Positions 19,267 to 32,805 of a stretch of DNA of 32,846 nt are shown here, piece by piece (the first letter of the stretch is position 1; each line of letters opens with the position of its first letter). The position numbers were made by a program, and so were the translations under genes. The DNA lies in NCBI GenBank assembly GCA_016934825.1, contig JAFGSB010000138.1, positions 1 to 32,846 of the forward strand, given 5' to 3'. Below the pieces are notes generated by a model. It made no database searches, was not told the origin of the DNA, and saw nothing but the letters and a program-made list of their open reading frames with translations. Source of the DNA: Candidatus Zhuqueibacterota bacterium (lineage in GTDB: Bacteria; Zhuqueibacterota; Zhuqueibacteria; Residuimicrobiales; Krinioviventaceae).

Positions 19267-19734
19267 TTATTCGTTTTTCGTCTCATTTAGATGACGAATC
19301 AGGGCGATTTCGTCGCAATCGGGGAATTTGGGGCAATTGATACAGTCTTTCCAGACTTTGTGGGGAAGGTCTTTTTTATCGATCAGGGAAAATCCAAGCT
19401 TTTCAAAAAATCCCGGTTGATATGTCAGGGTAAATACTTTTGGTAATTCCAGTTCCTGCGCTTCCAGAATCAATGCTTCCACGATGCGTCGTCCAAGTCC
19501 TTTTCCCTGCAATTCCGGAACAATTGCCAGCGATCTGATTTCCGCCAGGTCATTCCAGATAATGGACAACGCGCCCACACCGGCAACTTTATTGTCCCGT
19601 TCGATAACGATAAAATTCCGCAGTGAGTTGTAAATTGAGATTTGCGATACGCTAAGCATTTGATTTTTTTGCGCGTAATAATTGATCAACTGCACAATAG
19701 CGGGAACGTCTTTGATATTAGCTCTTCTCAGCAT
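19267..19734 (-). CDS. argA: GNAT-family amino-acid N-acetyltransferase (short ArgA-type N-acetylglutamate synthase)
   Basis: 155 residues, a single GNAT domain without the kinase-like domain of classical ArgA, as in the short NAGS type. The acetyl-CoA loop is visible as VPELQGKGLGRRIVEAL, and the C-terminal HKVWKDCINCPKFPDCDE with three Cys is typical of such proteins in arginine clusters. It would acetylate glutamate with acetyl-CoA, the first step of arginine synthesis. It is the last gene of the minus-strand operon; its ATG lies inside the end of argD (17-base overlap). With argJ also present, the first step may be supplied twice. Confidence 0.82.
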   Translation of the reverse strand: MLRRANIKDVPAIVQLINYYAQKNQMLSVSQISIYNSLRNFIVIERDNKVAGVGALSIIWNDLAEIRSLAIVPELQGKGLGRRIVEALILEAQELELPKVFTLTYQPGFFEKLGFSLIDKKDLPHKVWKDCINCPKFPDCDEIALIRHLNETKNE

Positions 19735-20923
19735 CTTTCTTTCCCACTTTATTTAATACGTTGGTGAATTTTTTTACGGCTTCATCGATATGCTTTTTTT
19801 CAACAATCAGCGGCGGTAAAAACCGTACCGCGTTGCCGCCCGTTTTGCAGATCAAGAGTCCGTCTGCGATACATTTATTAATAACCGTTTGCGGATCCAC
19901 ACTTAATTCAATACCAATCATCAAGCCCTTGCCGCGAACCGAGACAATGTCGGGAATCTTTCCCTGCAATTCATTCAACTGTGCGAAAATATAGTCGCTT
20001 TTTTCTTTGACGGAATCCAGAAATGATTGCCGGCTGATCCTCTTTAAAATATCATGGGCGACAAAAGTCACCAGCGGTCCGCCTCCGAATGTGGTCCCGT
20101 GATCGCCTGGTTTAATGTGAGAGGCGATATTATCGTTCATCAAAACGGCCCCCAGAGGTAATCCCCCGGCGATAGGTTTGGCGACAGTCATCATGTCCGG
20201 TAATATACCATATTGTTCATAAGCGCAGAAGGTACCGGTCCTGCCAAAGCCGCATTGGATTTCATCCAATATAAGCAGACAGTTGTTTTCTTCGCATAAT
20301 TCTCTCAAACCCTGTAAAAACTCCTGAGTTGCCGGGTAGACGCCGCCTTCACCCTGGACAGGTTCTACCAGAACGGCAACGGTTTTGTCTGAGATCCGTT
20401 TTTTTACGGACTCCAGGTCATTGAAATCGGCAAATTCAAATCCCGTCAGCATTGGGCCAAAGTTTTCCCAAAATTTGGGCTGTCCGGTGGCGGCCAGGGC
20501 GCCATAGGTGCGCCCGTGAAATGATCTGTTAAGGGTGATGATCTGAAAATCTTCTTTACTACGTGTTGCCGACGCCCATTTGCGGGCGAATTTGATCGCC
20601 GCCTCGATGGCTTCGGTGCCGCTGTTGCAGAAGAACACTTTATCCGCAAAGGTCTTTTTTACCAGCAATTCCGCTAACTGTACCTGCGGTTCCGTATAAT
20701 ACAGATTGGAGCAGTGCCAGAGCCGTTGGGATTGTTCCAGCAGCGCCTTTTGCGTCTGTTTGTCGTTATAACCAAACGCGTTCACGGCAATCCCGGAGAC
20801 GAAATCCAGGTATTTTTTCCCGTCAGTGTCATACAGGTAAACGCCGTTGCCGTGAGAGATGACAAAACCGGGCCGGGAATATGTTCCCAGCATAACTTTT
20901 TTTTCAGTCGTTATAATATCCAA
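19718..20923 (-). CDS. argD: Acetylornithine aminotransferase ArgD
   Basis: 401 residues, class III PLP aminotransferase converting N-acetylglutamate semialdehyde to N-acetylornithine with glutamate; homologues can also act on succinyldiaminopimelate. Visible: CNSGTEAIEAAIK (99-111), SFHGRTYGALAATG (134-147), LDEIQCGFGRTG (219-230), PLP lysine K249 in VAKPIAGGLPLG, and HGTTFGGGP. The start is TTG 20923 (MDIITTEKK), 14 bases after the argB stop; a weak AGGA lies upstream, and M11 is an alternative. It sits between argB and argA in one operon. Confidence 0.94.
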   Translation of the reverse strand: MDIITTEKKVMLGTYSRPGFVISHGNGVYLYDTDGKKYLDFVSGIAVNAFGYNDKQTQKALLEQSQRLWHCSNLYYTEPQVQLAELLVKKTFADKVFFCNSGTEAIEAAIKFARKWASATRSKEDFQIITLNRSFHGRTYGALAATGQPKFWENFGPMLTGFEFADFNDLESVKKRISDKTVAVLVEPVQGEGGVYPATQEFLQGLRELCEENNCLLILDEIQCGFGRTGTFCAYEQYGILPDMMTVAKPIAGGLPLGAVLMNDNIASHIKPGDHGTTFGGGPLVTFVAHDILKRISRQSFLDSVKEKSDYIFAQLNELQGKIPDIVSVRGKGLMIGIELSVDPQTVINKCIADGLLICKTGGNAVRFLPPLIVEKKHIDEAVKKFTNVLNKVGKKDAEKS

Positions 20924-20937
20924 TGTCTTTATTTTTC

Positions 20938-21717
20938 CTATATATGTATGGTGGTTCCGGATGGTGAATTCTGACTAAAAATATTTTGCAGTGTTTCGAC
21001 ACCCTGCCAGCAGGTTATATGCACCCGTTTGACATGTCCTTTCAAGGCATCGAATGCCGATTCCATTTTAGCGACCATACCGTCTTTAATTATGCCCTGA
21101 GAAATAAGCTGCCGCGCCTCATGAATTGTCAATGATGTCAGCAAATTTTCTCCCGATTTTACGCCGGTCACATCCGTAAAAAAGACGAGATCGGTACAGC
21201 CCGCGCCCACGGCAAGCGCCGAAGCCGCGCTGTCCGCGTTAACGTTATAACTGTTGCCCTGTTCATCTGCGGAAATCGGCGACACAACCGGGACGTTTCC
21301 CGCTCTCAGGGATTTTTCAATGATATCCGGATTCACTTTTTTGATTTGACCGACGAATCCGTAATCATGCCCCTGTCTTTGGATCGGCTCGGCAACCAAC
21401 AGGTGTTCCGTTTTGCCCGACATTCTGGTACAGGGCACGTGATTTATTTCCAGACAGGAAGCGATCCGGCCATTAACTGTTTCCGACAGTACCTGCTCAA
21501 CAATTTCGATGTCCTGTTTTTCGGTGACGCGGATGCCGTCAATGAACCGGGTCGGACGGTTGGCGGCTTTAAGAGCTTCCGATATTTCCGCGCCGCCGCC
21601 GTGCACGATGATAAAGTCGACGTCGGGTATTTTATTTATAGAACCCGCCAGTTCATCATAGCTTCGTGTGTCGTCAAATGCCCGGCCGCCGATTTTGAGC
21701 AATATTTTCGTTTTCAT
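20938..21717 (-). CDS. argB: Acetylglutamate kinase ArgB (short form)
   Basis: 259 residues, phosphorylates N-acetylglutamate with ATP. Visible: KIGG near the N-terminus (8-11), VHGGGAEIS (38-46), FIDGIRVT, NVNADSAASALA and IIKDGMVAKMESA. The protein starts directly at the first strand and ends GTTIHI, like the E. coli dimeric enzyme. It lacks the extra N-terminal helix of arginine-inhibited hexameric kinases, so direct arginine inhibition is unlikely (inference). Its ATG overlaps the argC stop in a 4-base ATGA, indicating coupling. Confidence 0.95.
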   Translation of the reverse strand: MKTKILLKIGGRAFDDTRSYDELAGSINKIPDVDFIIVHGGGAEISEALKAANRPTRFIDGIRVTEKQDIEIVEQVLSETVNGRIASCLEINHVPCTRMSGKTEHLLVAEPIQRQGHDYGFVGQIKKVNPDIIEKSLRAGNVPVVSPISADEQGNSYNVNADSAASALAVGAGCTDLVFFTDVTGVKSGENLLTSLTIHEARQLISQGIIKDGMVAKMESAFDALKGHVKRVHITCWQGVETLQNIFSQNSPSGTTIHI

Positions 21718-22736
21718 GTCAGCAGGCCTTTGGTTTCCGGGAATCCGAGCATTAAATTCATATTTTGTATGGCCTGGGTGCTGGCCCCTTTACCCAGATT
21801 GTCAATTGCCGAGAACAGAATCACTGTGTTACTGTCCGGCACAGTTTCCGCGCCGATAAAGCAATAATTCGTATTGGCGGCCATTTTGATTGACGGATAA
21901 CCTTCCTCGACCACATGCACGAACGGTTCGTCGCGGTAGGCGGATTCCATGATATCCAGTATATGCTGTTTTGTTTTTTGTTGTTTTGTTTTTACATAGA
22001 TCGTCGAAAACAGTCCGCGCGTAACCGGCAGCAAATGCGGTGTGAATGAAATCCTTGTTTCCCGTCCGGCGCATTTTGTCAGTTCCTGCTCCATCTCGCC
22101 GACGTGCCGGTGCGTACGGCCGGCTTTATACGGGGACAGGTTTTCGTTTACGTTGACATAATGGGTTGTTGAAGTTGCCGCTTTACCGGCACCGGACACG
22201 CCCGATTTGGAATCTGCGATAATCATGTCGTCGGATAACAGGTGCTTTTTGAGCAGCGGCAGTACTGCCAGCAGCACACCGGTCGGATAACAGCCGGGAT
22301 TACCGACAATATTTGACTTTTTAATGTCCTCCCGGTACCATTCCGGTAAACCATATACGGCTTTGTCCAGCAGTTCCGGAGTCGCGTGGTCCATGTTGTA
22401 CCATTTTTTATAGATTTCCGGGTCTTTAAAACGAAAGTCCGCGCCCAGATCGATGACCTTGACATTTTTTGATAAAAATATTTCGGCCAAATTGGCGGAT
22501 TCTCCCGCGGGCAGACAGAGAAATACGAGGTCCACAGACAGTTCCGATGCCTGCTGCGCTGAAATAAAAAATTTATTTTTATAGGCGGGCAGATGCGGAT
22601 ATATCGTAGCCAGCGGCCGGTCCTTGTCTTTTTCAGAGGTTACAAAATCAACCTCAACAGAGTCATGCTGGACCAGCACTTTTAACAATTCTTCGCCGGT
22701 ATAGCCCGTTGCGCCAATAATACCAATTTTTTTCAT
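21714..22736 (-). CDS. argC: N-acetyl-gamma-glutamyl-phosphate reductase ArgC
   Basis: 340 residues, reduces N-acetylglutamyl phosphate to the semialdehyde with NADPH. The Rossmann loop GATGYTGEE (8-16), LCLPAGES, VIDLGADFR, catalytic C149 in VGNPGCYPTG, and the C-terminal FTPHLLPVTRG and DNLGKGASTQAIQNMNLM are all present. Length and motifs are those of the common type 1 enzyme. It lies 10 bases after proC and overlaps argB by 4. Confidence 0.96.
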   Translation of the reverse strand: MKKIGIIGATGYTGEELLKVLVQHDSVEVDFVTSEKDKDRPLATIYPHLPAYKNKFFISAQQASELSVDLVFLCLPAGESANLAEIFLSKNVKVIDLGADFRFKDPEIYKKWYNMDHATPELLDKAVYGLPEWYREDIKKSNIVGNPGCYPTGVLLAVLPLLKKHLLSDDMIIADSKSGVSGAGKAATSTTHYVNVNENLSPYKAGRTHRHVGEMEQELTKCAGRETRISFTPHLLPVTRGLFSTIYVKTKQQKTKQHILDIMESAYRDEPFVHVVEEGYPSIKMAANTNYCFIGAETVPDSNTVILFSAIDNLGKGASTQAIQNMNLMLGFPETKGLLT

Positions 22737-22746
22737 ATTGAAAAAG

Positions 22747-23595
22747 TTATTTAATGTTTATGTTGTTTTTTTGTTCCAGATAATGAGATAATTCTCTGGA
22801 TTTAATTGTCGCTATCTCGACGGCACGAATGAGCATGGGCCGAAGACCGCTCTCTTCCAGTTCCTTGATAGCCTGTATTGTGGTGCCGCCGGGTGTGGTG
22901 ACCTGATCCTTCAATACCGCGGGATGAATGCCGGTTTCCTTGACAAGTTTGGCGGAACCGAGCACGGTTTGAGAGGCCAGCCGGGTAGCCACATCCCGCG
23001 GCAGTCCCATCATCACCCCGCCGTCGGTGAGCGCTTCAATGACCATATAAATATACGCGGGACCACTGCCGCTGAGTCCGGTTACGATGTCCATTTGCGC
23101 CTCGCTGACAATTTCAACTTCTCCGACGGAACCCAAAATTTTCAAGGCGATTTTTTTATGGTCATTGTCATTAGCGAATTCGCCAAGGCACAGACCTGCC
23201 GCCCCTTCGTCGACCACAGCGGGTATGTTGGGCATAGCCCTGACGACCGGATTTTTTTTGTTGATAAATTTTTCAATTGTTCCTGTGGTAATACCGGCCA
23301 GAATGGAAATGATGAGTTGCTCACCGCGAATCGATTCTTTAATATCGGTGAGTAAATCGTTTATGGCCTGGGGTTTTACACATAACACGATCACATCCGC
23401 AAATTTAACCGCTTTGTTATTGTCGGTTGTGGTGTCCACTTGCCATTTTTCAGAAATTTGTTTCAAACGTGCGGGTAAAACATCGGTGGCGATAATATTT
23501 TCGGGATTGGTCAGTTTTGCCTTGAGAAGGCCGCCCAGCAGCGCTTCTCCCATATTGCCGACGCCGATAAATGCTATTTTTCTGCTGAATAACAT
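22747..23595 (-). CDS. proC: Pyrroline-5-carboxylate reductase ProC
   Basis: 282 residues, reduces pyrroline-5-carboxylate to proline with NAD(P)H. The N-terminal loop GVGNMGEALLGG (11-22), LCVKPQ, SILAGI, VRAMPNIPA and the dimerisation block TGLSGSGPAYIYMVIEA...KDQVTTPGGTTI are present. A ribosome binding site AGGAGA precedes the ATG. It is embedded between argJ (8 bases upstream) and argC (10 bases downstream). No proA or proB is in the window; position suggests that pyrroline-5-carboxylate could come from ornithine (inference). Confidence 0.95.
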   Translation of the reverse strand: MLFSRKIAFIGVGNMGEALLGGLLKAKLTNPENIIATDVLPARLKQISEKWQVDTTTDNNKAVKFADVIVLCVKPQAINDLLTDIKESIRGEQLIISILAGITTGTIEKFINKKNPVVRAMPNIPAVVDEGAAGLCLGEFANDNDHKKIALKILGSVGEVEIVSEAQMDIVTGLSGSGPAYIYMVIEALTDGGVMMGLPRDVATRLASQTVLGSAKLVKETGIHPAVLKDQVTTPGGTTIQAIKELEESGLRPMLIRAVEIATIKSRELSHYLEQKNNINIK

Positions 23596-23603
23596 GCTTT
23601 CTC

Positions 23604-24818
23604 CTATGTATGATAATCCGCGTTTATCGTAATATAATCGTGGGTCAGATCACAGGTATATACCGTCGCCGAATAAGTTCCTGTCCCGAGACCCGCATAA
23701 ATATTGATTTCTTTTTTTTCCAGGGCTTTTTGCATTAATTCTTGATTGTATGATGTCGTCGCGCCCTTTTCCGCGACCGCAATATCCGCGAACCGAATAA
23801 CAAAGTTGTTCGGGTCAATTTCAGCTCCGCTGGCACCCACGGCCTGTACAATCCGGCCCCAGTTGGGATCTTTACCGTAAATTGCGGTTTTGACCAGATT
23901 GGAATTGGCGATGGCTTTAGCGGCCCGGATGGCGTCCTGTTTTGACGCGGCCTGGGCGGCCGTTACCGTTATCAGTTTGGTTGCGCCCTCGCCGTCAGAG
24001 ACAATGGCTTTAGCCATTTCGACGGATAATTTCTTCAAGGCTGTAAGAAATATTTTATAATTTTTATCCTTTATTGATATTTTTTCATTGCCGCTTAAAC
24101 CGTTCGCAAAGAGAAATATACAATCATTTGTACTCATTTCTCCATCGACGGTCAACATGTTGAATGAAATGTCAACGGCTTCTTTCAGGGCCTCCCGGAG
24201 CAACGGTTGTTCGATATTCACATTGGTTGTCATTATACAGATCATCGTTGCCATGTCAGGATTGATCATGCCGCTTCCTTTGGCAATCGCCCCGATGCTG
24301 CATTTTTTACCGTCGAGCTCGAAAGTGACAGAAAAATGTTTGGGCTTTGTGTCAGTGGTCATGATTGCCCATGCCGCATCAACGCCGCCGTTAGCCGAAA
24401 GGCCGGCGCGGGATTTTGGAATGGCTTTGCGTATCAAATCCATAGGCATCGGATGGCCTATAATACCGGTATTGGCTACCAGAACCAGTGCGGGATCGAT
24501 GTTCAATTCCCGGGCTGCAAGATCGATCATTTCCAAAGCGTCCGTAAATCCCTGTTCCCCGGTACAGGCGTTAGCATTACCGCTGTTTATCACGATAGCC
24601 TGTGCCTGTCCCTGTTTTGCCCTTTCTTTATCGATTAAAATACACGGCGCGGGAACCCTGTTTGTCGTAAACATTGCGGCAAGGTTGCAGGGCATATCAC
24701 TGGCGATTAACGCGAGATCGGGACCCGATTGTTTTATCAGGCAATGAATACCCGACGCTTTATATCCTTCCGGTGTTGTAACCGAGCCGTTTTGTATGGT
24801 TAAGTTATTTTTATTCAT
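23604..24818 (-). CDS. argJ: Glutamate N-acetyltransferase/ornithine acetyltransferase ArgJ
   Basis: 404 residues. ArgJ moves the acetyl group from N-acetylornithine to glutamate, recycling it; bifunctional forms also use acetyl-CoA. Visible: GNANACTGEQG (80-90), ANTGIIGHPMPM, AKGSGMINPDMATM with the self-cleavage/nucleophile Thr T191, TVDGEMSTND, GDGEGATKLITV-like SDGEGATKL, and YGKDPNWGRI. Self-cleavage before T191 is expected to give two chains. Mono- or bifunctional type cannot be told from sequence; the separate argA downstream would be needed with a monofunctional ArgJ. It follows cimA by 26 bases. Confidence 0.96.
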   Translation of the reverse strand: MNKNNLTIQNGSVTTPEGYKASGIHCLIKQSGPDLALIASDMPCNLAAMFTTNRVPAPCILIDKERAKQGQAQAIVINSGNANACTGEQGFTDALEMIDLAARELNIDPALVLVANTGIIGHPMPMDLIRKAIPKSRAGLSANGGVDAAWAIMTTDTKPKHFSVTFELDGKKCSIGAIAKGSGMINPDMATMICIMTTNVNIEQPLLREALKEAVDISFNMLTVDGEMSTNDCIFLFANGLSGNEKISIKDKNYKIFLTALKKLSVEMAKAIVSDGEGATKLITVTAAQAASKQDAIRAAKAIANSNLVKTAIYGKDPNWGRIVQAVGASGAEIDPNNFVIRFADIAVAEKGATTSYNQELMQKALEKKEINIYAGLGTGTYSATVYTCDLTHDYITINADYHT

Positions 24819-24844
24819 CTGCTAGTGTTATTTCGCTTCTATTG

Positions 24845-26437
24845 TTAATGTGGAATATCGTTTTTGTTGATTTCTTTTTTCATCAATAAATATGTGATTC
24901 TGTCGACCAGCGCCTGCCAGCTTGCCTCGATAATATTTTCGGATACACCTACCGTACCCCAGACCATATTTCCGGCCTGCGATTCAATATAAACCCGCAC
25001 TTTGGCGGCGGTACCTTCGGTGCTGTCGAGAACACGTACTTTGTAATCTATTAATTTCAGTTTTTTCAGCGCGGGATAAAAAGGTTCGAGGGCTTTTCGC
25101 AGAGCCCTGTCCAGGGCGTCAACCGGACCGTGTCCCTCCGACGCCGTGTGTTCAATTGTACTGTTGACCTTGACCTTCACAACGGCTTCAGAATAAATCG
25201 ATCCTTCTTCATGTTTATCGACAATGACCCGCGCGCCTTCCAGTTCAAAAAAAGGCCGGTGTTTACCCGTCGATTTATTGATGAGTATTTCGAACGAACC
25301 GTCGGCGCCTTCAAATTGATATCCGAGATGTTCCAACTCTTTCAAGTTGTTCACAATATCCTTAATTGCCTCTTTTTTACTGGACAGGTCAAGTCCCATT
25401 TCTTCCGCTTTTTGCAATATGTTGCTCTGGCCGGATTGATCGGAAATGAGGACACGCTGCCTGTTACCGACGAGTCCGGGATCGATATGCTCGTAGGTCC
25501 TGCGGTTGCGACGGATAGCACTGACATGAATACCACCTTTGTGCGCAAATGCGCTGTTGCCGACAAATGCCATTTCTTCCCGGTGCGGCAAATTCGCAAT
25601 TTCACTGACATATCGTGACAAAACGGTCAATTCACTTAGTTTCAGTTTAGCGAACAGGGGCACTTTTAACTTGAACGCGGTGTTTGCCATGATCGAACAC
25701 AGGTTGGCGTTGCCGCATCTTTCCCCGTAACCGTTAATTGTTCCCTGAACATGCATGACGCCTCTTTCTATCGACTCCAGGGAATTGGCAACCGCCAGGT
25801 CACTGTCATTATGGGCATGGATGCCCAGCGGTACGCCCAGTGCCATTTTTTTAACGATCTCTATGATCTCGCCGATTCTGGACGGGATGGTGCCGCCGTT
25901 GGTGTCGCACAGGACCAGACAATCCGCCCCTGCTTCCCTGGCAATCTCAAGCGTTTGTAAAGCGTACTCGGGATTGTCCGTGTAGCCGTCAAAAAAATGT
26001 TCGGCATCGTAAATGACTTCCTTGCCTTTGTCCTTCAAATAGGCGATGCTGTCCCGAATAATTTCCAGATTTTTATCCAGGGTTGTCCGCAGACCCTCCG
26101 TCACATGCAAATCCCATGTTTTGCCGAATATGGTGACAACCGGCGTGTTGGCCGAAAGTAAAAGTCTGATATTTTCATCTTCGGAAACCTTAACCTTGAC
26201 GCGCCTTGTGCTGCCAAAGGCGGTGATTTTTGAGTGTTTCCAGTCGATCTTTTCCGCGCGTGCAAAGAATTCCATGTCCTTTGGATTTGAACCCGGCCAG
26301 CCGCCTTCAATATAATCCATACCAAAGTCATCCAGCCTTTTTGCAATTTTTATCTTATCTTCGGCGGAAAATGATATCCCTTCACTTTGCGAACCGTCGC
26401 GAAGTGTGGTATCGTATAAAATTAGTCGATCCGGCAT
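24845..26437 (-). CDS. cimA: (R)-citramalate synthase CimA
   Basis: 530 residues, the length of CimA, which condenses pyruvate and acetyl-CoA to citramalate as a threonine-independent entry to isoleucine. Visible: YDTTLRDGSQSEGISFS (8-24) with the SQSEG variant typical of CimA versus EQSPG in LeuA, IEGGWPGSNPKD, CDTNGGTIP, metal-binding GIHAHNDSDLAVANS, and GYGERCGNANLCS. The C-terminal regulatory-type domain (about 370-530, with ASEGHGPVDALDRAL) is present. A perfect AGGAGG precedes ATG 26437. It sits between leuB and argJ and is the joint between the branched-chain and arginine halves of the operon. Confidence 0.94.
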   Translation of the reverse strand: MPDRLILYDTTLRDGSQSEGISFSAEDKIKIAKRLDDFGMDYIEGGWPGSNPKDMEFFARAEKIDWKHSKITAFGSTRRVKVKVSEDENIRLLLSANTPVVTIFGKTWDLHVTEGLRTTLDKNLEIIRDSIAYLKDKGKEVIYDAEHFFDGYTDNPEYALQTLEIAREAGADCLVLCDTNGGTIPSRIGEIIEIVKKMALGVPLGIHAHNDSDLAVANSLESIERGVMHVQGTINGYGERCGNANLCSIMANTAFKLKVPLFAKLKLSELTVLSRYVSEIANLPHREEMAFVGNSAFAHKGGIHVSAIRRNRRTYEHIDPGLVGNRQRVLISDQSGQSNILQKAEEMGLDLSSKKEAIKDIVNNLKELEHLGYQFEGADGSFEILINKSTGKHRPFFELEGARVIVDKHEEGSIYSEAVVKVKVNSTIEHTASEGHGPVDALDRALRKALEPFYPALKKLKLIDYKVRVLDSTEGTAAKVRVYIESQAGNMVWGTVGVSENIIEASWQALVDRITYLLMKKEINKNDIPH

Positions 26438-26486
26438 TTAATGCCTCCTGTAAAATTTTTTTTAAATATCAGGATATATTTTAAAT

Positions 26487-27545
26487 CTAAATCCCTTTTG
26501 CGACCATATCGCCTACTTCACTGGTGGAGTAACCCATCCTGCCCGCGGCCAGACTTTTGATTTTGTTCGCGGTTACGTTCATGATCGATTTTTCAATAGC
26601 CAGCGCGGCTTCCGTTTCACCCAGATGGTCCAGCATCATCGATCCGCAGGAGATCGCCGCCAGCGGGTTAATGATGTTTTTGCCGGTATATTTGGGCGCC
26701 GATCCGCCAATCGGTTCGAACATGCTGACGCCTTCAGGATTGATATTGCCGCCCGCCGCGATTCCCATACCGCCCTGGGTAATCGCTCCCAGATCGGTTA
26801 TGATGTCGCCGAACATGTTGCCGGTAACAATGACATCAAACCATTCCGGATTTTTCACCATCCACATACATGTTGCGTCGACGTGATAATATTCACGTTT
26901 AATAGCCGGGTAGTCTTTTGCGCCAATTTCATGAAAAGCCCGTTCCCATAGATCATAAACATAGGTCAGCACATTGGTTTTACCGCACAGGGCAAGGGTA
27001 TTGTTCTTGTTTCTTTTTTTGGTATACTCAAAAGCATATCGCAGACAGCGCTCCACCTGGAAACGGTTGTAAACCATGCTCTGTACCGCGACTTCATGCG
27101 GCGTATTTTTCATGGAAATACCACCCGTTCCGGTGTACAACCCACCCGAATTTTCCCGGACCACAACATAATCGATATGTTCCGGGCCTTTATCCTTCAG
27201 GGGTGTTTCAACACCGGGATATAATTTAACCGGTCGGAGGTTGATGTATTGGTCCAGTTCAAACCGCAGTCTTAACAGGATACCTTTTTCCAGGATACCC
27301 GGTTTCACATCCGGATGACCAATCGCACCGAGGAAAATGGCGTCAAATTTTTTCAAATCGTCAACCGCCGTATCCGGCAGCACTTCGCCGGTTTTAAGAT
27401 ACCGGTCGCCGCCAAAATCGAATGTTTCAAATTCCAGTTTAAATCCGAAGGTTTTTGTGGCGGCTTCAAGTACCTTTTTCCCTTCTACGACCACTTCCGG
27501 TCCTGTACCATCGCCGGGCAAAACAGCAATTTTATAATTTTTCAC
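26487..27545 (-). CDS. leuB: 3-isopropylmalate dehydrogenase LeuB
   Basis: 352 residues from GTG 27545, preferred to TTG 27560 because AAAGGA lies 6 bases before the GTG. The enzyme oxidises and decarboxylates 3-isopropylmalate with NAD+, and in citramalate users also 3-methylmalate. Visible: LPGDGTGPEV, GAIGHPDVKPG, LRFELDQYINLRP, RENSGGLYTGTGG, CGKTNVLTYV, the metal-site MFGDIITDLGA, and EPIGGSAPKYTGKNI. The RENSGGLYTG segment differs from the usual ENTGGIYFG of E. coli-type LeuB and resembles a second bacterial subgroup. A related decarboxylating dehydrogenase (tartrate or isocitrate type) cannot be excluded by motif alone, but context supports LeuB. leuC and leuD are not in the cluster. 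Confidence 0.9.
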   Translation of the reverse strand: MKNYKIAVLPGDGTGPEVVVEGKKVLEAATKTFGFKLEFETFDFGGDRYLKTGEVLPDTAVDDLKKFDAIFLGAIGHPDVKPGILEKGILLRLRFELDQYINLRPVKLYPGVETPLKDKGPEHIDYVVVRENSGGLYTGTGGISMKNTPHEVAVQSMVYNRFQVERCLRYAFEYTKKRNKNNTLALCGKTNVLTYVYDLWERAFHEIGAKDYPAIKREYYHVDATCMWMVKNPEWFDVIVTGNMFGDIITDLGAITQGGMGIAAGGNINPEGVSMFEPIGGSAPKYTGKNIINPLAAISCGSMMLDHLGETEAALAIEKSIMNVTANKIKSLAAGRMGYSTSEVGDMVAKGI

Positions 27546-27585
27546 ATTATTTCCTTTCAATTTTCATCATATCAATCAATTCAGA

Positions 27586-27616
27586 CCTGTTAATTATTGA
27601 AAAAATATTCAACAGG
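27586..27616 (-). other. Small hairpin between leuA and leuB
   Basis: CCTGTT (27586-27591) and AACAGG (27611-27616) pair, with a short inner TGAA/TTCA. It lies just beyond the leuA stop, in the longest internal gap of the operon (76 bases). It has no T-tract of terminator quality; an mRNA processing or stability role is possible. Confidence 0.35.
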
Positions 27617-27621
27617 ACCTA

Positions 27622-29172
27622 TCAGAGCGTCGCTTTCACATCATCTTTTTGATCTTTACCTGTCTGTAAATGCAGACTTTTATTTATCGCGTTGAGATAA
27701 GCACGAATACTTGCTTCGATGACATCCGTACTGGCGCCGCGGCCCAATATTTTTTGTCCGTTTTGTGTGATACGAACAACCACTTCACCCATAGCTTCTT
27801 TGCCGCCGGTCACTCCGCGTAAAGAATATTCTGCCAGTTTCAGGGGCATATTTACGATTTTATCGATGGCCTTATAGGCGGCATCTACCGGCCCGTCGCC
27901 GACGGAGGCTTCCTGGATAAGTTCTCCTTTATGCTCAAGTACGATCGTTGCTGTAGGAATGGCTTTGTTGCCGCTCAGCACATGAAAGTATTCAAGCTGA
28001 TAAGCGTCTTCAAAGTCCTGGGATTCATCGCCCACGAGGGCAATCAAATCTTCATCAAAGACCTCTTTCTTTTTGTCGGCAATCTGCAGAAACCGTTCGT
28101 AAACATGATTTAATTCCACCGTCGACAGGTTGTAGCCGAGTTCGACAAGCCGCTGTTTTAAACCATGACGGCCGGAATGGCGGCCCAGCACAATTTTGCT
28201 GGAGTCCAACCCGATTTCCGTAGGCGTCATGATCTCGTAGGTGCTGGCATGTTTGATCATCGCATCCTGATGTATGCCGGATTCATGGGCAAAGGCGTTC
28301 GAACCGACAATTGCCTTGTTTGGCTGTACGGGAATACCCATCAGGTTGCTGACCATTCGACTTGTGTTGATGATTTCTTTGGTGTTGATATTGGTGTATT
28401 TATTATAAAAATTCTGCCGGGTTTTGAGCGACATGACTACTTCTTCCAGTGACGCGTTACCCGCGCGTTCTCCAATACCATTAATCGTCACTTCAATCTG
28501 TTGTGCGCCGTTACGAATTCCGGCCAGTGTGTTGGCGACAGCCAGCCCCAGATCATTATGGCAATGTATACTCAGGATCGCCTGGTCGACATTGGGTACG
28601 GTATTGAGAATTTCATTTATCAAACCGCCAAACTCCTCCGGATTGGAGTAACCGACCGTATCCGGGATATTGATTGTCGTTGCACCGGCTCTGATCGCCG
28701 CCTCGACAATGCGGAACAAAAATTCTTTACCCGTACGGGCAGAATCCTCGGGTGAAAATTCGATATCGTGGCAATATTTTTTTGCTCTTTTAACGCCTGC
28801 AACTGCCATAGCCAGCACTTCATCTTCGGTTTTTCGAAATTTTTTCTCCAAATGTATTTTCGAAGTGGCAACAAACGTATGAATACGGGGTTTTTCAGCC
28901 TTTTTAATGGCTTCACCCGCTTTATCGATATCCAGGTCAACGCACCGGGCCAGAGCAGCAATGACGGGGCCCTTGACCTCGCTTGCAATTAATTGCGTGG
29001 CTTCGAATTGCGCCGCCGAAGAAACAGGGAACCCGGCTTCGATAATATCAACATTTAAACGCGCCAGTTGATGTGCAATTGCTACTTTATCTGGTACTCC
29101 CAGGCTTGCGCCAGGGGATTGTTCCCCGTCGCGTAAGGTGGTATCAAATACCAGAACGCGATTTTTATCCAT
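27622..29172 (-). CDS. leuA: 2-isopropylmalate synthase LeuA
   Basis: 516 residues, condenses 2-ketoisovalerate and acetyl-CoA in the first step of leucine synthesis. Visible: [17 protein letters not shown] (9-25), [22 protein letters not shown], metal-site [38 protein letters not shown], and the C-terminal regulatory domain (about 385-505, [14 protein letters not shown]...[16 protein letters not shown]), the site of leucine feedback in the family. GAGG precedes ATG 29172. It lies 11 bases after ilvC. Confidence 0.96.
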
Positions 29173-29183
29173 AATAGCCTCAA

Positions 29184-30221
<1,038 letters not shown>

Positions 30222-30224
30222 TTA

Positions 30225-30713
30225 TTAAAAAGTTCCGCTTGAATCGCGCAGCATGGAGATCGTTCCGGACCGTGCGATTTCTTTAATGCCAAACGGTCTC
30301 AGGGTCTCAATAAAAGCGTTCACCTTGGCTTCGCTGCTGCCTAATTCCAGAATCATCGTTTTATTACTGATATCTACAACCTTGGCGCCAAAGATATTAA
30401 TGAGTTGTGATATGTCATTCCTTTTTGTCGGAGTTGCCGTAACTTTAACAAGAACCAGGTCCCTGCTGACATAATAATTTTTTGTTACGTCGGTAACCCT
30501 GATGACATCGATCAGCTTGTTCAGTTGTTTGTTGATCTGTTCAATAACTTCATCGTTACCGCGAACGACGAGTGTCATACGCGCTGTTGCGTTCGGATCG
30601 GCCTGTCCAACGGAAAGCGCTTCGATATTAAAACCTCTGGCACTGAAAAGACCGGCAATTCTTGCCAGAACGCCGGCATTGTTCTCAACTTCTAAATTTA
30701 TTATATGTCTCAT
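30225..30713 (-). CDS. ilvN: Acetolactate synthase small (regulatory) subunit
   Basis: 162 residues, the usual small-subunit size. It binds and activates the catalytic subunit and mediates valine feedback. The N-terminal ACT domain reads INLEVENNAGVLARIAGLFSARGFNIEALSVG (split here only by naming: NNAGVLARIAGLFSARGFNI, 11-30). It is followed by TARMTLVV and a second ACT-like half from about 78 (VSRDLVLVKV...RPFGIKEIARSG). Its ATG overlaps the ilvB stop by one base (TAATG), so the two subunits are translationally coupled. Either symbol ilvN or ilvH is used for such proteins. Confidence 0.95.
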   Translation of the reverse strand: MRHIINLEVENNAGVLARIAGLFSARGFNIEALSVGQADPNATARMTLVVRGNDEVIEQINKQLNKLIDVIRVTDVTKNYYVSRDLVLVKVTATPTKRNDISQLINIFGAKVVDISNKTMILELGSSEAKVNAFIETLRPFGIKEIARSGTISMLRDSSGTF

Positions 30714-32434
30714 TATGCCATACCTCTTATCATTTCATTAATAGGTGCGCCAGCCGGCACCATTGGATAAACATTTTCTTCGGCTTCAATTTCAAACTCG
30801 ACAATAACAGGACCGGGGGTGTTTAGCATTTTTTCGAGGGTCGGTTTGACTTCTTCCACCTTGTTTGTAAAGAAACCTGTGGCGCCGTAAGCTTCCGCCA
30901 GTTTTGTAAAATTCGGTACATAGACTTTCGGGCAGTTTTCACCGGTTTGATCGCAGTCCGGCGGACAGTTGATATTTCGTCTCAGACAGGTAGATGAGAA
31001 TCTTCTGTCATAAAAAATGGCCTGCCATTGTCTTACCATACCCAGAGAGTGATTGTTGAGTATTACAATTTTAACCGGAATTTGATATAAAACGGCGGTT
31101 GCCAGTTCCTGTATGTTCATTTGAATACTGCCGTCGCCGGCAATATCCACAACAATTTTATCCGGCTGGGCGACCTGCGCGCCGATAGCGGCCGGGAACC
31201 CATATCCCATCGTTCCGAGTCCACCCGAGGACAGAAAAGTACGGGGATGTGTGAAATTATAAAATTGAGCCGTCCACATTTGATTTTGGCCCACTTCGGT
31301 CGTAATGATCGCTTTACGATTTGTCAGTTCCGCGATTTGTTCGATAACGTACTGCGGCTGAATTCTTCCGTCGTTTTTGTATTTGAGCGGATGATCTTTC
31401 TTCCATTTGTATATTTGTTCGAGCCATTCTTTGTTTTCTTTCGGCTCTACAATTTTATTCAATTCATGCAGAACATGTTTTATATCGCCGACAACCGGAA
31501 TGTTGACCTGAACGTTTTTTCTGATTGTTGTGGGATCGATATCCATGTGGATGATTTTGGCTTTTGACGCGAATTTATCGACTTTACCGGTTACCCGGTC
31601 ATCAAAACGGGCGCCTACTGCAATTAACAGGTCCGCTTCCTGTATGGCGTAATTGGCGTACTCGGTGCCGTGCATACCCAGCATTTTGAGTGAGTTTTTG
31701 TCCGTTTCGGGATATACACCCAGCCCCATCAAAGTTGTCGTAACCGGGGCGTTGATAATTTTTGCAAACTGGCGTAATTCATCACTGGCGCTGCTGCTGA
31801 TAACACCTCCACCGGCATAAATAACCGGTCTGTTGCTTGCTGCAATCGCTTTGGAGACATTTTGTATCTGCGGCATGTGACCTTTTATTGTCGGTTTGTA
31901 ACTTTTAATTTCAATACTATCCGGATACGGTTTTGACGTTTTTGCCTGCTGAATATCTTTTGGAATATCCACTAAAACAGGACCGGGTCTGCCGGACTGC
32001 GCAAGATAAAAAGCGGATTTTAGTATATGCGGTAAATCATCGATATTGCTGACAAGATAATTATGTTTTGTGATCGGCCGGCTGATGCCCACGATATCCA
32101 CTTCCTGAAACGCATCGTTTCCTATAAGATGCGTGTGTACCTGTCCGGTAATGGCGACTATCGGTATTGAATCCATATGCGCCGTTGCAAGCCCGGTAAC
32201 GAGGTTTGTCGCGCCCGGACCGGAGGTCGCAATGCATACGCCGACTTCACCGGAAGCCCGGGCAAAGCCGTCCGCGGCGTGAGCAGCGCCCTGTTCATGC
32301 CGGGTTAAATAAAATGGAATGTCGGAATTGTATAGAGCATCAAAAATGTCTATAACCGCTCCTCCCGGATAACCGAAAAGAGCACGGACACCTTCTTTTT
32401 TTAAGGCGTGTATAATCATTTCTGCACCAGTCAT
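30713..32434 (-). CDS. ilvB: Acetolactate synthase large (catalytic) subunit, with four-Cys insertion
   Basis: 573 residues from ATG 32434 ([15 protein letters not shown]), preceded by AAAGG; the frame is open to 32533 but that extension is not protein-like for this family. It makes acetolactate/acetohydroxybutyrate using TPP, FAD and Mg2+. Visible: [14 protein letters not shown], catalytic E47 in [24 protein letters not shown], the TPP motif [12 protein letters not shown] ending in NN, and GMVRQWQ. A Cys-rich insertion lies between FYDRRFSST and the [12 protein letters not shown] block: C483, C490, C494, C501 (C-x6-C-x3-C-x6-C). It is the first enzyme gene of the operon and lies 167 bases after the leader peptide stop. 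Confidence 0.95.
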
Positions 32435-32514
32435 AATAACCTTTCTTGGTTTTAATGAATTATTTATAATTATTAAATAATTACCGTTCCGAATTAAAAC
32501 GCACTTGCTCTTTT

Positions 32515-32524
32515 GGTGATGAGG
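32515..32524 (-). promoter_or_regulatory. Possible competing pairing segment downstream of leader hairpin
   Basis: On the minus strand CCTCATCACC can pair with GGTG...GAGG in the post-stop arm of the leader hairpin (32586-32596), giving two 4-bp blocks around a small internal loop. Nearby GAGCAAG (32504-32510, minus) could instead pair with the leader's CTTGCTC. Either would compete with the main hairpin. No U-tract terminator is visible between here and ilvB. Confidence 0.35.
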
Positions 32525-32585
32525 AATTCCCAATTATCCGATATATCTTTGAAATTGTGAACTTGGAGAGATTTGCTTGCGATTT

Positions 32586-32626
32586 CCTCTTGCACCTTTT
32601 GTTATATCAGAGAACGGAGCAAGAGG
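32586..32626 (-). promoter_or_regulatory. Leader-stop hairpin (attenuator candidate)
   Basis: Reading the minus strand, CCTCTTGCTCC (32626-32616) covers the last Leu-Leu-Leu codons of the leader peptide. GGTGCAAGAGG (32596-32586) lies just after its stop. They pair in 10 of 11 positions. A ribosome stalled on or before those codons would prevent this stem from forming, the basic layout of amino-acid attenuators. Confidence 0.65.
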
Positions 32627-32805
32627 TTAATAATAGCGATAGGTAATCTCACCAGGCGCACCACAATGCGCACGCCTAGTAATAACAGATTGGCCGGATT
32701 GTTTAATAATAATGGTGTATGAAAGCATAATAATGCGCTTTCGGTATGATTGGATACCGAATAAGAATCGTATGCATCATTATTTGTATTAAAATCTGCT
32801 TTCAT
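32602..32805 (-). CDS. Leader peptide rich in Leu/Val/Ile and Arg (putative ilv-leu-arg operon attenuator)
   Basis: A 67-codon frame from ATG 32805 to TAA 32602, 167 bases before the ilvB start. The first half is unremarkable and polar. From residue 32 the content changes abruptly: residues 40-67 contain 10 Leu, 4 Val, 5 Ile and 4 Arg out of 28 (examples: NLLLLGVRIVVRLVRLP, IAIINLLLRSLI). This matches the products of the downstream operon, which makes Ile, Val, Leu and Arg. E. coli ilv leaders work the same way with runs of Val, Ile and Leu codons. The ribosome binding site is weak (TGGA, 7 bases before ATG). At 67 residues it is longer than known ilv leaders. A chance hydrophobic frame is the alternative; position, composition and overlap with the hairpin argue against that. 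Confidence 0.72.
   Translation of the reverse strand: MKADFNTNNDAYDSYSVSNHTESALLCFHTPLLLNNPANLLLLGVRIVVRLVRLPIAIINLLLRSLI
32654..32677 (-). promoter_or_regulatory. G/C-rich hairpin within leader control codons
   Basis: AGGCG/CGCCT at the ends with an alternative inner GCGCA/TGCGC pairing, over the Gly-Val-Arg-Ile-Val-Val-Arg codons of the leader peptide. It is unusually G/C-rich for this A/T-rich leader. A ribosome moving through the Val/Arg codons would melt it. Confidence 0.45.
32721..32760 (-). promoter_or_regulatory. Two adjoining hairpins early in the leader
   Basis: On the minus strand TCGGTAT/ATACCGA (32760-32741, perfect 7 bp, 6-base loop) is followed at once by GAAAGC/GCTTTC (32742-32721). 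An early hairpin that pauses polymerase is a normal part of ribosome-mediated attenuators. The promoter itself is probably at or beyond the right edge. Confidence 0.45.

Follow-up and report, generated by a model that had tools for sequence, protein, structure and literature searches.

A candidate terminator-less three-arm leader attenuator of ilv-leu genes in Candidatus Zhuqueibacterota

How might a leader peptide control an amino-acid operon if no intrinsic terminator follows it? Escherichia coli trp and ilvGMEDA are leader-peptide transcription attenuators, in which a hairpin with a U-run serves as terminator. The question is raised by a stretch of 32,846 nucleotides from a Candidatus Zhuqueibacterota bacterium (the window; contig G000:C11 in the genome labels used here, G000 being the window's genome). 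An initial annotation had described competing folds behind the stop codon of a short leader ORF, had seen no terminator hairpin before ilvB, and had suggested that control might act through Rho or through translation of ilvB. We examined these proposals in relatives of the window and across its phylum.

The ilvB leader and its arms in the window

The leader ORF precedes a run of biosynthetic genes on the minus strand (Table 1). Ile, Leu and Val make up 63% of its last 30 codons in the window, and on average 57% in 17 leaders; the corresponding figure for the first ~230 codons of their ilvB genes is 21-25%. The Leu codon CTA is ten times commoner in the leaders (21% of 169 Leu codons) than in ilvB (2% of 259). 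This is the short ORF, rich in the amino acids of the pathway and upstream of a biosynthetic operon, that characterizes attenuators, and its translation is predicted. G000, which is 95% complete, gave no ilvD match at E 1e-100, though ilvB, ilvN and ilvC were found; the gene may be lost, unassembled or replaced.

Table 1. Features of the ilvB leader and the genes behind it in the window
Feature	Position	Strand	Remarks
Leader ORF	32602..32805	-	67 codons, putative start codon; ends VRIVVRLVRLPIAIINLLLRSLI; regulatory Ile/Leu/Val codons at 3' end
Arm 1, CCTCTTGC(TCC)	32616..32626	-	Leader Leu codons CTC TTG CTC; partner string CCTCTTGCTCC of the initial annotation at 32626-32616
Leader stop codon, TAA	32604-32602	-	5 bases 5' of arm 2
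Arm 2, GGTGCAAGAGG	32586..32596	-	Post-stop; predicted to pair alternatively with arms 1 and 3
Spacer, arm 2 to arm 3	32527..32585	-	Candidate Rho loading site in the family; composition weak in the window (11 C, 9 G)
Arm 3, CCTCATCACC	32515..32524	-	~60 bases past arm 2, 5' of ilvB; degenerate in the window; read 32524-32515
GAGCAAG	32504..32510	-	Second downstream partner in the initial annotation, read 32510-32504; judged chance
ilvB ribosome-binding and start region	32420..32452	-	~AAGAAAGG, then ATG at 32434-32432; GGTGCA = codons 3-4
ilvB, acetolactate synthase large subunit	30713..32434	-	TIGR00118, 840 bits vs cut-off 538; heads the presumed operon
ilvN, ilvC, leuA, leuB-like, cimA, argJ, proC, argC, argB, argD	19718..30713	-	NCBIfam matches; same strand, 3' of ilvB

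All strings described in the initial annotation are present on the minus strand: the TAA, arm 2, its leader partner CCTCTTGCTCC, to which it is complementary at 10 of 11 positions, the downstream partner CCTCATCACC, and GAGCAAG. When the downstream sequence is shuffled, pairing of arm 2 with CCTCATCACC has p 0.018. Among 200 shuffled leaders, 51 contain a 10/11 pair spaced by at most 60 bases, and the window's leader folds no better than its shuffles (z -1.24). No exact further copy of the arm 1-arm 2 motif was found elsewhere in the window's genome. The window alone gives modest evidence for the pairings; at the level of sequence, it is their conservation in relatives, in several of which arm 3 resembles CCTCTTGCACC, that settles the case.

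The annotation had also paired the leader segment CTTGCTC with GAGCAAG, a proposal that we rejected. Among 17 leaders, only that of the window has GAGCAAG downstream, and three have GAGCAA; perfect 7-base inverted pairs are plentiful in the window's AT-rich leader (26 observed vs 9.4 in shuffles). Because it is unconserved and such pairs are common, we read this one as chance. The alignment that had been proposed as a check on the two downstream segments separates them: relatives keep the CCTCATCACC arm but not GAGCAAG.

Conservation of the layout in the order and the phylum

We compared 16 ilvB orthologues with their upstream DNA, the window's included, from the 22 genomes of the window's order, and built a covariance model from the aligned leaders. 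The model, whose filters are stricter and lose some weak matches, matches 17 of 82 genomes of the phylum, all 17 within the order. Leader and arms occur in all 16 genomes of the order with a retrieved ilvB start (arm 3 in 15), and the model adds G005, whose leader (L131) was absent from training and from the arm-pairing tests on the 16. The other five genomes have ilvB cut by a contig end (G003) or gave no ilvB match at E 1e-100 (G002, G007, G009, G014).

Arms 1 and 2 pair at 8 of 8 positions, G-U pairs allowed, in 15 of the 16 leaders and at 7 of 8 in L011, and the 8-base core of arm 1 pairs with arm 2 in 99.2% of alignment cells, against 39-60% when slid. The duplex of arms 2 and 3 is above shuffles at p<=0.05 in 14 of 16, the exceptions being L011 and L007, which is without arm 3; in the other 15 leaders arm 3 lies 36-64 bases past arm 2. 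Paired changes are seen, CCTTTTGC with GCAAAAGG in L004, and GGCTGCAAGAGG with GCAGCC in L012 and L016. When arms were swapped between species, own partners bound more strongly than foreign ones, both for arms 1 and 2 (-16.2 vs -15.4 kcal/mol, p 0.004) and for arms 2 and 3 (-18.0 vs -14.9 kcal/mol, 0/10000), by permutations that ignore kinship; in a subset with one leader per close pair the values were p 0.012 and 0/10000, respectively. Counted column by column, arms 2 and 3 pair in 83.8% of cells vs 40-53% when slid, which is little above shuffles (48/500 as high), in part, we suppose, because bulges shift the alignment.

Folding was in part favorable to a switch. In 13 of 16 leaders, constrained folding with arm 1 blocked gave arms 2 and 3 a pairing probability of 0.5 or higher; folding of the free RNA gave the pairing of arms 1 and 2 at least 0.5 in 11 of 17. 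Arms 2 and 3 outweigh arms 1 and 2 in six of 16 free RNAs, which counts against the proposed switch. We conclude from the aligned sequences that both predicted pairings co-vary, and that the regulatory codons sit in one arm of a mutually exclusive set. The competing folds that the annotation had placed after the leader stop are thus conserved among relatives.

Several loci are unusual in other respects. At G010:C88 and G020:C26, ilvD and ilvB are divergent, head to head, ~0.9 and 2.0 kb apart; at G006:C4:75002-76718 (L114/L030), the ilvB matches fall in two reading frames that overlap, which may reflect a frameshift introduced by assembly; and G001 and G004, both of the window's order, each carry an additional ilvD-ilvB operon that is preceded by a short ILV leader (L162, L164).

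Outside the order, ilvD mostly precedes ilvB in the loci examined. An ILV-rich leader, an arm past its stop and, further downstream, a near-copy of arm 1 occur there in 22 of 25 distinct loci, from 13 families, with sequences that are quite different. These 22, tested for arms, were among 39 loci fetched upstream of ilvD-like or neighboring genes; the analysis excluded 13 loci of the window's order (at ilvD or at second ilvD-ilvB operons), L183, L185 and L187, in which no ILV leader was found, and L188, a duplicate of L153. The duplex of arms 2 and 3 is above shuffles at p<=0.01 in 22 of 22 leaders, and that of arms 1 and 2 at p<=0.05 in 17 of 22. By these predicted pairings the three-arm layout is conserved across the phylum; the letters of its arms are not. 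One ILV-rich three-arm leader (L153/L188, G042:C16) stands 5' of a gene, upstream of an ilvB, that we take from its N-terminus to be threonine synthase-like. In many leaders of L150-L171, CAGG and A-rich bases can be seen by eye directly 3' of arm 3 (e.g. ACAGGCAAAG), perhaps a pause site.

Terminators, spacer composition and the ribosome-binding site

A terminator scan of the window between 31800 and 32846 found none, either before ilvB, as the annotation had stated, or elsewhere in the leader. The relatives were searched with one fixed scan (stem of at least 5 pairs, at least 3 of them G-C, and a U-rich tail). Terminator-like hairpins occur in 2 of 17 ilvB leaders (L004 and L015; none in the seventeenth, from G005) and in 2 of 22 ilvD-type leaders, one of them inside the leader ORF, leaving 35 of 39 ilv leaders without one. 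Downstream of arm 3, local hairpins are not in excess (16 leaders, mean z 0.12). On these counts we rejected an intrinsic terminator as a family feature, and the classical arrangement of a G+C-rich hairpin and U-run set against an antiterminator was not found.

The trp leaders of the phylum served as positive control. Among 20 trpE upstream regions, 16 with a recognized Trp leader were scanned (L201, L203, L206 and L207 were left out), and 15 of these 16 leaders with clustered Trp codons, G000's included, have a terminator, which in 14 of the 15 reaches the scan's 12-pair maximum. Since the same scan finds these terminators, their absence belongs to the ilv leaders and not to the phylum or the scan. 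The ilvB element and an intrinsic terminator in the trp leader occur together in seven genomes (G000, G001, G004, G006, G011, G013 and G019). In trp leaders L189-L196, L198 and L199 (L189 being G000:C160:820-1540), clustered Trp codons are accompanied, by eye, by two tandem terminator-like hairpins 5' of trpE: CGCCGTGG..CACGGCG with a T run, then GCGCTGTG..CAGCGC with a T run, and variants of these.

The spacer between arms 2 and 3 has a distinctive composition, 30% C and 8.7% G in the ilvB set (L007, lacking arm 3, was given an arbitrary spacer end). Its mean C-G is 0.214, whereas intergenic DNA from elsewhere in these genomes averages 0.014 (sd 0.023), with 0/5000 control sets as biased; C is enriched in its own right (0/5000); and G again equals or exceeds C ~60-70 bases past arm 2, close to where arm 3 ends. 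Spacers of the ilvD set have 27% C and 6.1% G, and the 50 bases past the stop of trp leaders 25% C and 18% G. The window's spacer is not unusual (11 C, 9 G, fraction 0.31) and is the weakest member. A Rho gene is present in all 22 genomes of the order, and the spacer is a candidate site for its product, although a G-poor spacer could merely stay unpaired. A second Rho-like gene of ~370-460 residues, missing 37-59 positions at the start of the Rho model, occurs at G000:C109:43047-44150 and in nine other genomes of the order.

In some relatives arm 3 likely has another partner, the ribosome-binding site (RBS) and start of the first gene; for the window, modeling predicts no effect. Of 15 leaders, 10 have the ilvB start as the best downstream site of arm 3, and among these only L012 is above shuffles at p<=0.05; against windows inside the gene, arm 3 reaches 0.05 in 5 of 16. 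Swapping arm 3 and starts between species in the ilvB set gave p 0.0013, and 0.10 without L012, L016 and L018. In the ilvD set the swap of arm 3 and RBS gave p 0.023, and 0.0026 with fewer close relatives; singly, against shuffled RBS, 7 of 22 leaders had p<=0.05 and 9 of 22 had p>0.5. Examples found by eye are AUCGCUUCU facing AGAAGCGAU(G) in L154 and UUGACC facing GGUCAA in L158. Arm 1 was tried as the masking strand and rejected, since swapped starts or RBS suit it as well as its own (p 0.12 to 0.96). Arm 2 with the RBS, intended as a negative control, paired better with its own than with swapped sites in the ilvD set (p 0.012-0.016; 0.18 for both sets).

We then considered the whole leader. 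The predicted cost of opening the RBS was lower with a stalled than with a terminating ribosome in 28 of 39 leaders, which we do not take as proof, because the two states leave unequal lengths of RNA to fold. Masking arm 2 while holding the foldable RNA constant removes this difference: the predicted cost of opening the RBS rose in 31 of 39 leaders and fell in 6, its mean going from 9.07 to 10.86 kcal/mol (Wilcoxon p 9e-6, 39 leaders). Masking an equal stretch of spacer brought no change (p 0.66). The rise was 1.80 vs 0.85 with shuffled RBS, and 0/40 shuffled sets were as high with both sets pooled; by set, the counts were 0/40 for ilvD and 3/40 for ilvB, the latter marginal. In the window, masking arm 2 shifts the predicted opening cost by 0.0 kcal/mol. 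The annotation's guess of control by Rho or by ilvB translation was a reasonable one and is supported at the level of the family, by the C-rich spacer, the Rho genes and the co-variation of arm 3 with RBS or start; in the window itself both signals are weak or absent.

A proposed mechanism and its alternatives

Five properties of these leaders were computed: the leader ORF, conserved alternative pairings, no terminator, the family's C-over-G bias, and in part of the relatives a fit between arm 3 and the RBS. We suggest, with a probability of about 0.55, that they form a terminator-less three-arm leader-peptide attenuator of ilv-leu genes, with RBS masking and Rho as outputs. When Ile, Leu or Val is scarce, a ribosome would stall at Leu or Ile codons in or just 5' of arm 1 and cover it; arms 2 and 3 would then pair, closing the spacer in a loop and leaving the gene start free, and ilvB would be on. 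When these amino acids are plentiful, the leader would be read to its stop, and the terminating ribosome, then the hairpin of arms 1 and 2, would withdraw arm 2. The freed arm 3 would tend to mask the first gene at its RBS or initial codons, and Rho could load on the single-stranded spacer, C-rich and G-poor, and arm 3, and stop transcription. Translation of the leader and stalling, the direction of the response, masking of the RBS in vivo and the action of Rho are steps that we infer. For the window's own sequence only the switch between the two pairings is predicted, masking is not, and the element there resembles a weakened version of a phylum-wide design.

Transcription attenuation by Rho alone, in which the pairing of arms 2 and 3 shuts spacer and arm 3 off from Rho and pairing with the RBS is irrelevant, above all in the window's order, is an explanation that we hold possible, at clearly less than even odds. 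It draws on the spacer's bias (0/5000 controls), which lasts until about the end of arm 3, on the presence of Rho in 22 of 22 genomes, and on an RBS-masking signal that the ilvB set shows only marginally and the window not at all, yet it leaves the co-variation of arm 3 and RBS in the phylum unexplained, the window's 11 C and 9 G do not favor it, and a loop of 40-60 bases inside the duplex of arms 2 and 3 need not keep Rho out. The swap tests of arm 3 with start or RBS, the masking of arm 2, and the pairs seen in L154 and L158 would be expected if arm 3 masked the RBS, the G-poor spacer just stayed unpaired and Rho were not specifically involved. Such purely translational attenuation is unlikely in our judgment: C itself is enriched in the spacer (0/5000), no masking is predicted for the window or several relatives, and 9 of 22 leaders of the ilvD set are without an arm 3-RBS fit.

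The remaining alternatives carry little weight. The two folds might alter mRNA decay instead of initiation or termination, as reported for part of the Salmonella speF leader (PMC6386406); nothing in the sequences examined points that way, and we consider it very improbable. A classical attenuator whose intrinsic terminator is weak or hidden might be read from the U-tailed hairpins of L004 and L015, or from 36% T in the stretch 20-40 bases from where arm 3 begins, but hairpins in only 2 of 17 and 2 of 22 leaders, a mean z of 0.12 past arm 3, and a scan that recovers 15 of 16 trp terminators make this a slighter chance still. Chance complementarity around a spurious ORF is hardly credible: the window by itself is not decisive, but conservation and co-variation across the phylum, and already the alignments, oppose it.

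The mechanism that we favor has parts in common with several known systems. Attenuators of the trp/ilv type likewise combine a leader peptide with regulatory codons, alternative hairpins, and a stalled ribosome that picks the pairing permitting expression; theirs close with a hairpin and U-run, in contrast to the ilv leaders here and like the trp leaders of the same phylum. In Bacillus subtilis rtpLP-rtpA (anti-TRAP), amino-acid starvation stalls the leader ribosome and frees a masked Shine-Dalgarno (SD) sequence; that system differs in its Trp codons and its single regulatory gene, and is not known to have a three-arm layout. The leaders here have those features of a leader-peptide attenuator that are computable from sequence, and a response to starvation is predicted.

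Among branched-chain amino-acid (BCAA) leaders, that of Mycobacterium tuberculosis ilvB1NC has an intrinsic terminator (PMC13236596). An account of actinobacterial leaders (PMC1262725) describes others that, as here, combine a leader peptide with no obvious terminator: in LEU, the Leu codons can pair with the leuA SD box and form a pseudoknot, reportedly unlike classical attenuation, and for terminator-less cys leaders Rho is suggested. By that account the Leu codons of LEU themselves pair with the SD, whereas here the switching strand would be arm 3, a distinct element that nearly repeats arm 1; a pairing of the Leu-codon run with the SD box was not found here, arm 1 being no better than swapped. 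The proposed ilv mechanism is most like speF/orf34 (PMC6386406) and topAI/toiL (PMC12121999): in both, the position of a ribosome on a leader ORF affects RBS access and Rho-dependent termination, coupling one to the other. Their signals (arginine and ornithine for speF, ribosome-targeting antibiotics for topAI), genes and sequences are other than those of the ilv leader. The ilvB-OMG, ilvB (Leptospira) and ilvB-II motifs, proposed attenuators in PMC10272879 and PMC8632094, share a BCAA-rich uORF 5' of ilvB, and are set apart here by Rfam scores. Neither the window nor any of 20 related loci gave an Rfam match at a family's gathering score, and at E up to 10 the leader was matched only by a snoRNA model, far below its cut-off. 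Our literature search found no report on a leader peptide for candidate division KSB1.

We suggest, tentatively and at a little under even odds, a wider generalization: the BCAA operons of this phylum may be run by terminator-less, Rho-coupled attenuators in which arm 3, a copy of the regulatory codons, toggles between the post-stop strand and the RBS, and its trp operons by intrinsic terminators. Because the layout persists despite turnover of arm sequences between families, architecture and not sequence would be what is selected. Attenuators are often recognized by their terminator, so screens for a hairpin and U-run would miss leaders such as these. The threonine synthase-like gene under an ILV leader would link threonine supply to isoleucine demand. 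The phylum would provide an internal contrast, with Rho or translation serving one amino-acid family and intrinsic termination another.
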